64,000 nt of DNA, from the NCBI RefSeq assembly GCF_026341775.1, contig NZ_JAPEOB010000001.1, positions 4,278,001-4,342,000 of the forward strand. Direction: 5' to 3'. Source of the stretch: Streptomyces sp. NBC_00654. Lineage in GTDB: Bacteria; Actinomycetota; Actinomycetes; Streptomycetales; Streptomycetaceae. Positions 11,049 through 15,268 of this stretch are shown in pieces. Every line of letters begins with the position of its first letter. The first letter of the stretch is position 1. The notes beneath the pieces were generated by a model. It ran no database searches. It was given only the letters and a program-made list of their open reading frames with translations, and was not told the origin of the DNA. The translations under genes and the position numbers were made by a program.

Positions 11049-12665
11049 TCATCCGGCGGCGCCGAAGTTCTGGGTCCACACCGGCCCGCTCCCGGTGCTC
11101 CGCATCCCCACACCGATCTCCTCGAACGAACAGTTGAGGATGTTGGCCCGGTGCCCGGGGCTGTTCATCCATGAACTCATCACCTCCGCCGGGGTGCGCT
11201 GGCCCTTCGCGATGTTCTCCCCGTACGTGCTCCAGCGATAGCCGGCCGCGGTGAGGCGATCGCCCGGATCGGTGCCGTCGGGCGAGGTGTGCGCGAAGTA
11301 GTCCCGGGACGCCATATCGGCGGAATGCCGCTGCGCCGCCGTGGACATCAGGCCGTTTCCGCGTACCGGACCGCATCCTTCCTTCGCACGCTCGGCGTTG
11401 ACGAGATCGGTGACCTGCTGCGACACGGAGGGCGGGGCGGGCGGCGCCGGAGTGGCAGGCCGGGGAGAGGGCGCCGGGGTGCCCGCTGCGGGCCGTGCAC
11501 TGCTGCTCGCCGTGGCCCCGGCGGTGGGAGAAGGCGTCCGCGACGGTGAAGCGGTGGGCGAGGACGGCACCACGGACGCCGGCCGCGGCGGCGTCGCCGC
11601 GGGCGCCGAGGAGCGGGTGGAGGCATCGGGCGCACCGGCCGTGACCGCCGCCTCGTCCCGGTCGGAGTCCCCGTCGTCCGCGTAGAGATGTACGGCGCCG
11701 CCACCGGTGCCCAGGGCCGCGACCGCGACCAGCGCGGCCACGACCGTATTGCGCCGTCGCCGCCGGAGGCCACGCCGGCGCTCCGCACGTCCGGGCCGGT
11801 GCGGACGGACGGCGGCGGTGGTGGCGGACCCGGCCGCGTGACGGGCGGCGGCGGGTCGTCCGGCGGCTGTGTTGAGCAGGTCCGGGGCGGCTTCCGGGAG
11901 GGACGGCGCCAGAGGTACCAGGGCCAGTCCGACGAGCAGGCCCTCCGCGGGGACGAGCTGAGAACCGTGACCCGAGCAGACGGTGCAGCCACGGGCATGA
12001 CGGGCCAGACGCTTGCGCCAGAGGGCCGACGGCACCCCGTCCCATCCGGCGACGATCTCCTCCAGCAGGACGCAACGGGGGCGGGAGCCCAGCGCGCCCA
12101 CCACCACCCTGGCCGCCTCCAGCTGGGCCTTCATCCGCTGGACCCGGACCGCAGTGTGCTGCGGGGTCAGTTCCAGAGCGTCGGCGACCTCGGCCCGGGA
12201 CACCTGACCCGCGGTCTCCAGCCACCACAGTGACAGCAGAGCCCGGTCCTCCTCGTCCAGCCACCGCGTCGCCTCCGCCACCTGGCGGCGCTGTCCGGTC
12301 AGACCGAGCCGGAGAATAGTCACATCGACGAAATCGGCACCCGGGTCAGGCCTGTCGTGAGCGTCGTCCAGATGGTCGGCGGGCATGGCCCCGGACCGCT
12401 GCTCCCGCCAGTGCTCGCGTATCTCGTTCATGGCTATGGCCACCAGCCAGGAGCGGAAACGCCCGGGATCACGCAGCCCGGGAAGACCCCGCAGCATGCG
12501 CAGCACCGTCTCCTGCACGACGTCATCGACGTCCGCGTGCCCGTTCAGCGCACGGCCCACGATGTTGTAGAGCAACGGCAGATACGACGCGACGAGCCGG
12601 TCCTGCGCCTGCTGGTCGCCGCTCCGCGCCGCGGTGATCAACGCCGTGCCGTGTTCCTCGCCCAT
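11049..12665 (-). CDS. ECF-type sigma factor fused to zinc motif, membrane helix and extracellular CAP domain
   Basis: 538 aa from the ATG at 12665. Order of parts: sigma region 2 at ~15-90 (DVDDVVQETVLRMLRG); sigma region 4 at ~125-190; an H-x3-C-x2-C zinc-type motif at His223, Cys227 and Cys230 (RHARGCTVCSG), as in ZAS-family anti-sigma factors; an Arg-rich stop-transfer (RRRGLRRRRR) and one membrane helix at ~307-327; a Ser/Thr/Pro-rich linker to ~412; and a CAP/SCP (PR-1-like) domain at ~415-538 with YFAHTSPDG and GENIA. The charge bias places the sigma part in the cytosol and the CAP domain outside. A sigma factor tied to the membrane by its own putative inhibitory domain implies signal-dependent release, perhaps proteolysis; this is inference. 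Confidence 0.85.
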   Translation of the reverse strand: MGEEHGTALITAARSGDQQAQDRLVASYLPLLYNIVGRALNGHADVDDVVQETVLRMLRGLPGLRDPGRFRSWLVAIAMNEIREHWREQRSGAMPADHLDDAHDRPDPGADFVDVTILRLGLTGQRRQVAEATRWLDEEDRALLSLWWLETAGQVSRAEVADALELTPQHTAVRVQRMKAQLEAARVVVGALGSRPRCVLLEEIVAGWDGVPSALWRKRLARHARGCTVCSGHGSQLVPAEGLLVGLALVPLAPSLPEAAPDLLNTAAGRPAAARHAAGSATTAAVRPHRPGRAERRRGLRRRRRNTVVAALVAVAALGTGGGAVHLYADDGDSDRDEAAVTAGAPDASTRSSAPAATPPRPASVVPSSPTASPSRTPSPTAGATASSSARPAAGTPAPSPRPATPAPPAPPSVSQQVTDLVNAERAKEGCGPVRGNGLMSTAAQRHSADMASRDYFAHTSPDGTDPGDRLTAAGYRWSTYGENIAKGQRTPAEVMSSWMNSPGHRANILNCSFEEIGVGMRSTGSGPVWTQNFGAAG

Positions 12666-12848
12666 GCTGTGCTCACTCTTCCGGGGTCCTGTTCCGTCTC
12701 TTCCCACACCCGGGAGACGCGGTGCGGGCGGGACAATAACAAGAATCCGCCGGACCACCCCAAGTTTCTGCCCTCGGGGTGGTGGCCGCACCGGCCGTCG
12801 CGATGAAGCCGTTCGTGAGCACGGCCGGTGGCGTACGGTCAGGGGCCG

Positions 12849-13346: not shown

Positions 13347-14441
13347 TCACGCGGTGAAGGGTGGTCCGCCGTCCGGGCCGCGGCTCCCGCTGCCGCCGTC
13401 GCGCCGCTGAGGCGGAGCTCCCGACAGCGGTGCGAACTGCTCCACCAGCGTCTGCAGCTCCTCGACGGCATGCTCCGTCCGGCGGCGGATATTGGTGTGT
13501 TCGGCCACGATCGCGGCCAGCAACAGCGCGGTGAGCGCCACACAGCCGTTGAAAAGCGACAGGTTCACCATGATCTCCACCAGGCTGTGGTTGTCGAACG
13601 GTCCCACGCCATCGGTTCCGGCGACGATCGCCAGCACGGACACCAGCAAGGCGCAGGGCGCGCTGCCGGGCAGTTGAAAGCGCAGCGCCGCCCAGATGAG
13701 CACCGGAAACACCAGATAGATCATCGACAGCGAGCTTCTCGTCGCCAGCAGGCCGACCGACAGCGTCGCGACTGCCAGCACCGAAGCCTCCACCCAGCGG
13801 TCGGTCATCCGCGGCAGCCTCGCCCTCCGCAGGACCAGCACGAGCGGGGTGACCACCAGCACCCCCATGGCATCGCCCGCCCACCAGGACGACCAGACCA
13901 GCCAGAAGCTGCTCGTCGGCAGTTTGCCGCTGAGTAGCAGTTGCACGCTGCCCACCGTCGCACTGATGAGCATTCCCACGAACGCGCCGAGAAGAACGAG
14001 CATCATGCCGTCCCGCAGACGTGCCAGATCGACCCGGAAGTCCGCTCTGCGCAGCATGAGATACGCGCACAGCGGTGCGACCGTATTGCCCGCCACGATG
14101 CCGAGACCGGAGAACGTGACGGAGCCTCCGGTCGCGGTGATCGTCAGGAGCGCCCCGAGGGCGATGCCCGGCCAGATCCTCGTTCCCAGAATCAGCAACG
14201 CGCCCAGAGCGACGCCCGTGGGCGGCCAGAGCGGAGTGACGATGGACCCGTGGACCACCACTTCCCTGAGCAGGCCGAGCCGTCCCGACCCGTAGTAGAC
14301 GGCGGCGACGCCCAGTATCTGCGCGACGGCCACGGCCCGATGTCTGGCTTCCTTGCTGCGGATCACACCTGTCATCAGACACCGACCGCATGGGGAGGCG
14401 GCTGTGACACGCTCGGCGGGCGCGCGACGCGCCTGTGTCAC
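13347..14441 (-). CDS. MASE1-domain integral membrane sensor protein
   Basis: 364 aa from the GTG at 14441. That start overlaps the TGA of the upstream phosphatase gene in a 4-bp GTGA, which selects it over an internal ATG at 14375. About eight to ten hydrophobic helices fill residues ~35-315, with LWPPTGVALGALLILGTRIW as the MASE1 signature (PPxGxALxxLLxxG.R.WP). A short coiled-coil tail follows (RRRTEHAVEELQTLVEQFAPL) and then a disordered end. MASE1 domains usually carry a C-terminal GGDEF, kinase or PP2C output; here there is none, and the coupled gene supplies a phosphatase. The pair probably works as a split receptor. Ligand unknown. Confidence 0.82.
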   Translation of the reverse strand: MTQARRAPAERVTAASPCGRCLMTGVIRSKEARHRAVAVAQILGVAAVYYGSGRLGLLREVVVHGSIVTPLWPPTGVALGALLILGTRIWPGIALGALLTITATGGSVTFSGLGIVAGNTVAPLCAYLMLRRADFRVDLARLRDGMMLVLLGAFVGMLISATVGSVQLLLSGKLPTSSFWLVWSSWWAGDAMGVLVVTPLVLVLRRARLPRMTDRWVEASVLAVATLSVGLLATRSSLSMIYLVFPVLIWAALRFQLPGSAPCALLVSVLAIVAGTDGVGPFDNHSLVEIMVNLSLFNGCVALTALLLAAIVAEHTNIRRRTEHAVEELQTLVEQFAPLSGAPPQRRDGGSGSRGPDGGPPFTA

Positions 14442-15268
14442 CGCGGCCGGCGGGCGGCCTCATGACGCAGGACGAGCACCGCCGCGTCGTCCTCGTGGCC
14501 GGTGAACTCCGCCGCCCCCAGCACCTCGTCGGCCAGTTCCTCGGCGCTCGCCCCGGAATGGGCGCCGACCAGCCGGCGCACCCGGTCCAGGCCGTCCTCG
14601 ATCAGCAACGACGGGCCCTCGACCACGCCGTCGGTGAGGAGCACGAGGGTTCCGGCGGTGTCGAGCGTGCGCCGGGTGACGGGATAGTGCTCCCCGGCCG
14701 CGATGCCCAGAGGCAGGCCGCCGGGGTCCTCGGTGATGCCGGACAGCCCGTCCACGGTCCCCCATACGCACGCCACATGACCGGCCCGCGCACTGTGCAG
14801 CTCCCAGGTGCGCGGGTCGAGCCGGAGAAACGTACAGGTCGCGAACAGTGCGGAGTCCACGGACAGCAGCAGATCGTTCGTACGCGCCATGACGTCGCCG
14901 GGATCGGAGGCCGTGGCCGCGATCGCGCGCATGGCGATGCGTATCTGCCCCATGAAGGCCGCCGCCTCGACGTCGTGGCCCTGGACATCGCCGATCGCGA
15001 AGCCGAGGGCCCCGTCGGGCAGCGGGAATCCGTCGTACCAGTCACCCCCGATGTCCAGCCCGTGGCGGGCGGGGGCGTAGCGGGCGGCGCTCTGCAGTCC
15101 CGGCAGCGTCGGCAGCGACGCGGGCAGCATCTCGCGCTGGAGGGCCTGCGCCAGCTCGACGCGCGCCTGGTGCAGTTCCACTTCCTGCCGAGCGCGGGCG
15201 GTGAGACTCTGCAGGGTGTTGAGCAGTTCCTCGGCGCTTCCTGAGCGGGGAGTCCGACGCGGGTTCAT
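14438..15268 (-). CDS. SpoIIE/RsbU-type PP2C serine phosphatase
   Basis: 276 aa from the ATG at 15268, seven bases after GGAG. Residues ~35-60 contain ALQREMLPASLPTLPG, the opening helix of the family. Metal-binding motifs follow: DIGGDWYDGF, GDVQGHDVEAAAFM, LVLLTDGVVEG and GHEDDAAVLVL. The enzyme dephosphorylates serine on anti-sigma antagonists in partner-switching pathways; the exact target is unknown. The N-terminus has only a short coiled coil and no sensory domain. The stop overlaps the start of the MASE1 gene, so the two are translated together and the membrane protein probably supplies the sensor. Confidence 0.88.
   Translation of the reverse strand: MNPRRTPRSGSAEELLNTLQSLTARARQEVELHQARVELAQALQREMLPASLPTLPGLQSAARYAPARHGLDIGGDWYDGFPLPDGALGFAIGDVQGHDVEAAAFMGQIRIAMRAIAATASDPGDVMARTNDLLLSVDSALFATCTFLRLDPRTWELHSARAGHVACVWGTVDGLSGITEDPGGLPLGIAAGEHYPVTRRTLDTAGTLVLLTDGVVEGPSLLIEDGLDRVRRLVGAHSGASAEELADEVLGAAEFTGHEDDAAVLVLRHEAARRPR

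Follow-up and report, generated by a model that had tools for sequence, protein, structure and literature searches.

A one-piece ECF sigma factor with a predicted outer CAP domain and a candidate promoter for its own gene in Streptomyces

Can a sigma factor, the brake that holds it and the sensor that frees it be carried on one polypeptide, and which genes would such a protein govern? The question is raised by a gene of Streptomyces sp. NBC_00654, which lies in a window of 64,000 nucleotides (the whole stretch analysed; contig NZ_JAPEOB010000001.1, positions 4,278,001 to 4,342,000 of the forward strand; coordinates below are those of the window). The gene, referred to here as sigma-CAP, occupies 11049..12665 on the minus strand and encodes a protein of 538 amino acids, in which an extracytoplasmic function (ECF) sigma factor, a zinc anti-sigma-like segment, a membrane helix and a CAP domain follow one another. 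Judged from sequence, sigma-CAP is probably a membrane-tethered, autoregulatory sigma factor, released by proteolysis upon a signal at the CAP domain.

The frame is open throughout, from an ATG at 12665 to a stop at 11051-11049, and GGAAGAG, which by eye resembles a ribosome site, lies 5' of the ATG. The initial annotation of the window had given the right interval; the frame runs on the minus strand, whereas the plus strand of the same interval is interrupted by stops. All the parts that it had named are present. Sigma region 2 (12396..12596, minus strand; residues 24-90) matches Pfam PF04542 Sigma70_r2 with an E value of 8.4e-17, and region 4 with its helix-turn-helix (HTH; 12108..12311, minus strand; about residues 119-186) falls within a match to the NCBIfam sigma70-ECF model TIGR02937 (residues 20-183; 68.6 bits vs a cut-off of 42.9). 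The protein thus has regions 2 and 4 and no region 3, as defines an ECF sigma, and the PDB matches of the sigma part are the ECF sigmas 6dxo, 1or7 and 6jbq. The zinc anti-sigma-like stretch (11970..12080, minus strand; residues 196-232) reads C198-x24-H223-x3-C227-x2-C230, which corresponds to the H-x3-C-x2-C motif of zinc-binding anti-sigma (ZAS) proteins recognized in the initial annotation, together with an upstream ligand, C198. At the other end, the CAP domain (11064..11408, minus strand; residues 420-534) matches Pfam PF00188 with an E value of 4e-22 (79.7 bits vs a cut-off of 21.1), which places it in the CAP superfamily, and falls short of the YkwD subfamily cut-off (TIGR02909, 118.6 bits vs 171).

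Between these parts, a conserved hydrophobic stretch (11901..11969, minus strand; residues 233-255; hydropathy 1.63 at 237-255) is perhaps the last anti-sigma helix. It is followed by an Arg-rich flank (11751..11795, minus strand; residues 291-305) predicted to be cytoplasmic, with nine R/K in residues 291-306, a single membrane helix located by hydropathy (11682..11750, minus strand; residues 306-328, strongly hydrophobic at about 307-325) and a Ser/Pro/Ala-rich linker (11424..11681, minus strand; residues 329-414), the Ser/Pro linker of the initial annotation. Six D/E lie in residues 328-345, distal to the helix. By the positive-inside rule, a basic flank stays in the cytoplasm. Because R/K precede the helix and D/E follow it, the helix is best read as an N-in/C-out signal anchor (type II), which would place the N-terminus in the cytoplasm and the CAP domain beyond the membrane; the Arg-rich flank and the one helix had been annotated correctly, but not the term stop-transfer. 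A second transmembrane helix at 237-255 was rejected, since this stretch is only weakly hydrophobic, and a pair of helices would return the chain to the cytoplasm before the CAP domain, in contradiction to the Arg/Asp flanks.

To assess the conservation of this architecture, we compared the best 120 of the 4645 proteins that passed a homolog search, query included. These are the nearest full-length homologs, and the conservation values (the frequency of the most common residue, averaged over columns) are to be read relative to one another, not as absolute. Sigma and CAP parts occur together in 119 of the 119 other proteins, and those with a named source are from Streptomyces. The whole fusion is also present in four loci fetched from named genomes (L003-L006). 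In a CAP search over 118 genomes of the class, 50 loci around matches were read, some from the same place; at least 7 of 10 sampled Streptomyces genomes, the own one among them, carry fused genes, and none of the 24 non-Streptomyces CAP loci read is a fusion. These counts rule out an assembly frameshift or a chance read-through that joined two genes, the artefact against which the initial annotation had cautioned. With the N-terminal part as query, the best 120 of 662 proteins also include sigma-half relatives from Kitasatospora, Embleya, Actinomadura, Actinoallomurus and Yinghuangia.

The residues on which the proposed functions would depend do not vary. In 120/120 full-length homologs, sigma region 2 retains D45, D47, D48 and Q51, which we take to be core polymerase contacts, so the alignment gives no sign of the loss of such contacts that the initial annotation had considered. 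The four zinc ligands are likewise invariant, in 120/120 of these homologs and in 57/57 of a wider set, as are H447, H459, E483, H505, C431 and C512 of the CAP domain in the 120; a C431/C512 disulphide would suit a domain outside the cell. Conservation is high in sigma regions 2 (0.89) and 4 (0.94), the zinc segment (0.92), residues 233-255 (0.91) and the CAP domain (0.87), and drops to 0.36 in residues 256-288 and 0.62 in the linker. Within the helix, the inner half scores 0.77 and the outer half 0.91. Because the outer half is so much better conserved than the linker next to it, it has presumably a role beyond that of an anchor, and its Gly-rich sequence, AALGTGGGAVHLY, is likely a protease or packing site. 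In two divergent members of the family, L068 (CAP part) and P0210, the GENIA of the CAP domain is replaced by GETIA and its P-G-H by S-G-R or P-G-R.

A candidate for the promoter that the sigma part would recognize lies directly in front of its own gene. The upstream regions of 12 family genes, which include the near-copies L004 and L005, are barely alignable in their flanks, yet 11 of them share TGTTAT-N16/17-SRTCYCC at a similar position; L065 has the variant CGTTAT, and the alignment revealed no such site upstream of L068. The SRTC part is similar to ECF -10 boxes. In sigma-CAP, the site is TGTTAT-N16-CGTCTCC (12713..12741, minus strand). It has zero mismatches and is the single match in the window even when two mismatches are allowed, with 0.5 expected by chance. 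In the 9.6-Mb genome, the strict pattern TGTTATN{15,17}NRTCYCC has one site, before sigma-CAP itself, and the control has none.

Applied to 101 Streptomyces genomes, the same pattern yielded 130 sites in 74 genomes, compared with 11 for a reversed control. The DNA behind all 130 sites was read, some stretches of it ending at contig ends. The next gene belongs to the sigma family at 75 sites, encodes the protein type represented by L132 at 17, an alginate-lyase-like protein at 16 and a stand-alone CAP protein at 4, and is of another kind at 18, many of which are likely chance matches, given a control level of about 11. The last group includes L206, a broken sigmaX-like gene (sigmaX is described below). 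A CAP domain follows in the same frame at 53 of the 75 sigma-family sites and was not detected at the remaining 22. The strict site stands before sigma-CAP in 51 of the 101 genomes and is the sole site class in 36 of those 51. The predominance of the sigma family, 75 of 130, points to autoregulation, and sigma-CAP appears to turn on its own gene via TGTTAT-N16-SRTCYCC.

Immediately in front of the pattern, at positions that the search left free, the bases are rich in A/T: AAAA in 15/15 sigmaX sites, TTT in 15/16 lyase, 17/17 L132 and 3/4 stand-alone CAP sites, and mostly A/T, though less uniform than in these classes, in the sigma-CAP sites; the sites of the remaining kind are mixed. The spacer is N16 in 50/53 sigma-CAP sites and N17 in 14/15 sigmaX sites.

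The sigma genes that lack a detected CAP domain reveal that the same chassis is combined with other outer domains. Fifteen of these 22 genes (L155 and L233, the latter being the same gene as L106, among them) form a uniform group, sigmaX, whose outer domain starts with YG(T/S)VVDAVD. No Pfam domain was detected in the outer part of L155, the one sigmaX protein scanned over that part, or in L233, and the outer domain matches neither the lyase nor the L132 products. L142, which ends at a contig end, resembles a sixteenth sigmaX; in L124/L234 (L234:279-3020, plus strand), the outer domain is a right-handed beta-helix (Pfam E 1e-11); and the five others have a cut-off CAP start or unclear ends. 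The sigma parts of sigma-CAP, sigmaX and the beta-helix proteins share one clade with 100/100 support. Near the end of the stretch read, L234 also carries a sortase-like LAQTG; if this is correct, a chain tied to both wall and membrane would be a possible tension sensor.

The lyase-like and L132 genes carry the site almost only in genomes with sigmaX. The lyase-like protein L121 matches Pfam Alginate_lyase (E 3.5e-8), and 14 of the 16 proteins of this type end in an LAxTG-type, sortase-like signal; L132 is a secreted beta-strand-repeat protein whose gene carries the same promoter-like site as sigmaX. Among the 101 genomes, sigmaX sites occur in 16 (L142 counted) and lyase or L132 sites in 18, with 16 in common: both are present in 16 genomes, the targets only in 2, sigmaX only in 0 and neither in 83 (Fisher p 1e-16).

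Stand-alone CAP genes with the strict site were found in four genomes, and one of them, L139, encodes a distant CAP. Three of the 51 genomes with a sigma-CAP site also have the site at a stand-alone CAP gene, and the fourth genome has the CAP site only. In a CAP tree, the 34 CAP domains of fused proteins form one group (support 87) that adjoins stand-alone membrane CAPs, three of which have the promoter-like site; the supports of 84-87 are modest and come from 128 columns. Such a membrane CAP (YkwD-like; L084) likewise has a basic flank, one helix, a Ser/Pro linker and a CAP domain, but, unlike sigma-CAP, no sigma part. For L045, the stand-alone CAP gene of the own genome, the 3-kb stretch read lacks GTTAT on the strand of the gene. 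Five other Streptomyces loci (L062, L063, L072, L078 and L085) encode a tandem CAP pair, the first of which is degenerate, behind an N-terminal domain that by eye is TerD-like.

From this anatomy we infer how inhibition, signalling and cleavage may proceed. At rest, the zinc segment would cover the sigma domain in cis, and the helix would keep it at the membrane. The CAP domain would read a cell-wall signal, which may be a wall fragment, a lipid or a partner protein, and thereby open the stalk to a first cut by a site-1 protease. A second cut, by an intramembrane protease, would fall within the conserved, Gly-rich outer half of the helix, after which proteolysis in the cytoplasm would free the sigma domain. 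The free sigma would drive TGTTAT-N16-SRTCYCC promoters, which stand before its own gene and in certain species also before stand-alone CAP genes. The sister proteins would work in the same way through different outer domains, with surface polysaccharide genes as targets. Precedents for this scheme are the processing of IutY by Prc and RseP, the truncation of SCO4117 and the cutting of RsgI by RseP.

Several observations weigh against a released, autoregulatory sigma factor. Region 4 of the window protein passes no cut-off in a Pfam scan, and the support for its HTH consists of TIGR02937 and a sub-threshold AsnC-HTH match. Pfam zf-HC2 matches just 3 of 57 family members at E<=1 (best 0.089) and not the window protein, and because so few members match, the zinc site rests on its ligands and not on a model. 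The lack of a Pfam region 4 match, together with the long branch of the sigma clade (2.03), would suit a relic N-terminus, in which the sigma domain no longer functions and the protein is a plain CAP surface protein. However, few parts of the protein are as well conserved as sigma regions 2 and 4, and most of the promoter-like sites precede genes of this very sigma family, which makes a relic most implausible. The promoter evidence has gaps of its own. Half of the genomes (50/101) have no strict site before sigma-CAP, a count that does not separate a missing gene from a missing site, and the divergent L068 lacks the promoter-like site and has lost a CAP His; there, sensor and target set may have changed together. 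The spacer does not sort the targets cleanly (10 N17 and 6 N16 for the lyases; 10 N17 and 7 N16 for L132), and two genomes have lyase or L132 sites and no sigmaX site. A wider regulon was not detected in the own genome, where the single strict site may reflect the strictness of the pattern and not a tiny regulon; a relaxed pattern matches at 7 places, compared with 3 for the control, and four of the seven are identical copies. These four (G000 C1:1021003, C2:455718, C2:1162134 and C2:2417739) perhaps lie inside a repeated element. Another sigma could also read these sites, which the co-occurrence counts make less likely.

The strongest competitor shifts the purpose of the protein from regulation to supply: the CAP surface protein would be the main product, and its shedding or cleavage would free a sigma that acts chiefly on its own promoter. 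The lone strict site of the genome, the 36 genomes in which no other site class accompanies that of sigma-CAP and the invariance of the CAP-type residues all fit such a circuit. But strict patterns miss variants such as the CGTTAT of L065, stand-alone CAP genes share the site in four genomes and the other targets co-occur with the sister sigmaX, and we consider a pure self-supply circuit somewhat unlikely. A sigma that acts while still bound to the membrane, with the CAP signal merely loosening the zinc segment and no need of cleavage, is less likely again, since the strong conservation of the outer helix half favours a protease or packing role, and IutY, the one tested fusion named in a review, is cleaved (PMC8999054).

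Regulated release with autoregulation is accordingly our preferred reading of sigma-CAP, and it opens a broader view that we offer tentatively, as a possibility. One chassis of sigma, zinc brake and helix may serve as a plug-in sensor family, in which the outer domains (CAP, sigmaX and beta-helix) are exchanged while the promoter, TGTTAT-N16/17-CGTCTCC, is kept and surface-protein genes are governed. In such a family, the circuit of sigma-CAP would have shrunk to a self-renewing receptor: once the outer part is broken, the sigma set free would have a replacement made and, in certain species, free copies of CAP as well. With the gene, a sharp candidate for an autoregulatory promoter and a set of co-occurring targets in hand, the proposed chain from signal through cleavage and free sigma to the own promoter is testable. 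To our knowledge, little is known of the signals that bacterial CAP domains sense; when coupled to a gene switch, such a domain offers a readout of its sensing, and the swapped outer domains provide a natural set of chimaeras.

No partner gene is inferred from the neighbourhood. Of eight window genes compared, the ones adjoining sigma-CAP recur in the locus of a close ortholog, L003, and not in L004-L006, which is what a brake that acts in cis would lead one to expect. Pfam assigns three of the neighbours to the MT0933-like antitoxin family, MASE1 and SpoIIE. The antitoxin family gene (PF14013; 12864-13043, minus strand) lies directly upstream of sigma-CAP and is kept beside it in L003. The MASE1 membrane sensor gene overlaps the SpoIIE-type phosphatase gene by 4 bases (13347-15268, minus strand), which places a sensor and an output next to each other.

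How does sigma-CAP relate to other fused sigma factors? Of the 45 sigma-region-2 matches in the own genome, 38 were read, and one other one-piece protein was recognized among them, L039. It contains Sigma70_r2, zf-HC2 and NPCBM domains, the make-up of ECF52/SCO4117. The initial annotation had proposed a phylogenetic placement. In a tree of 42 sigma rows, 16 family members form one clade with 100/100 support, apart from L039 and 25 sigma rows of the own genome, but a joint clade with L039, which is long-branched, is not rejected (approximately unbiased test, p 0.43), and SCO4117 is outside the tree. Sigma-CAP has the ECF52 layout of sigma, zinc finger (by ligands only), helix and Pro-rich extension; in place of the carbohydrate-binding outer domain, it has CAP. 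Given its different outer domain and a tree compatible with either grouping, we do not file sigma-CAP as ECF52.

Among the closest known counterparts is SCO4117 of Streptomyces coelicolor, an ECF52 member whose single chain comprises sigma, zinc finger, helix, Pro-rich stalk and an outer domain, for which proteolytic release and autoregulation were proposed and a truncated sigma form of which activates its own expression (PMC5826349). Actinobacterial proteins of this fused type have long been on record, and SCO4117 has been called the best understood of the fused sigma/anti-sigma membrane proteins (PMC8999054). The order of parts is the same as in sigma-CAP; in contrast, the outer domain is a carbohydrate-binding module, and the SCO4117 motif CSGYN-17-SRHA differs from TGTTAT-N16-SRTCYCC. 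The promoter signature of SCO4117 was still an open point in 2018 (PMC5826349). According to a review, some ECF52/ECF53 proteins carry glycosyl hydrolase and carbohydrate-binding domains (PMC10766802). ECF53, likened here by description only, combines a fused zinc anti-sigma with a membrane part as sigma-CAP does, and the sigma-CAP family could belong to it. IutY of Pseudomonas putida (ECF243) has a fused membrane anti-sigma and is cleaved by Prc and RseP (PMC8999054). Like sigma-CAP, it joins a sigma to its anti-sigma, but it belongs to another sigma group, serves iron-siderophore signalling and comes from a Gram-negative host. The RsgI/sigma-I systems of Clostridium thermocellum resemble the family in their multiple membrane sensors and in a helix cleavage such as that proposed here; unlike sigma-CAP, they involve another sigma type, and sigma and anti-sigma are two separate proteins. 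Several substrate sensors are tied there to cellulosome genes, and RseP cuts the RsgI helix (PMC12203970).

The initial annotation had seen in sigma-CAP a complete signal pathway in one polypeptide, whose sigma part would act once let go from the membrane. The anatomy fits a complete pathway, but the idea is not new, having already been proposed for ECF52/ECF53 (PMC8999054, PMC5826349). A search of the open-licence literature, mainly by titles and abstracts, found no published sigma-CAP fusion. Thus, the one-piece layout of sigma, zinc brake and membrane part is already known from ECF52/SCO4117 and ECF53, and what sigma-CAP adds to it, as far as the literature searched shows, is the CAP sensor, the candidate promoter and a possible plug-in family with matched targets.
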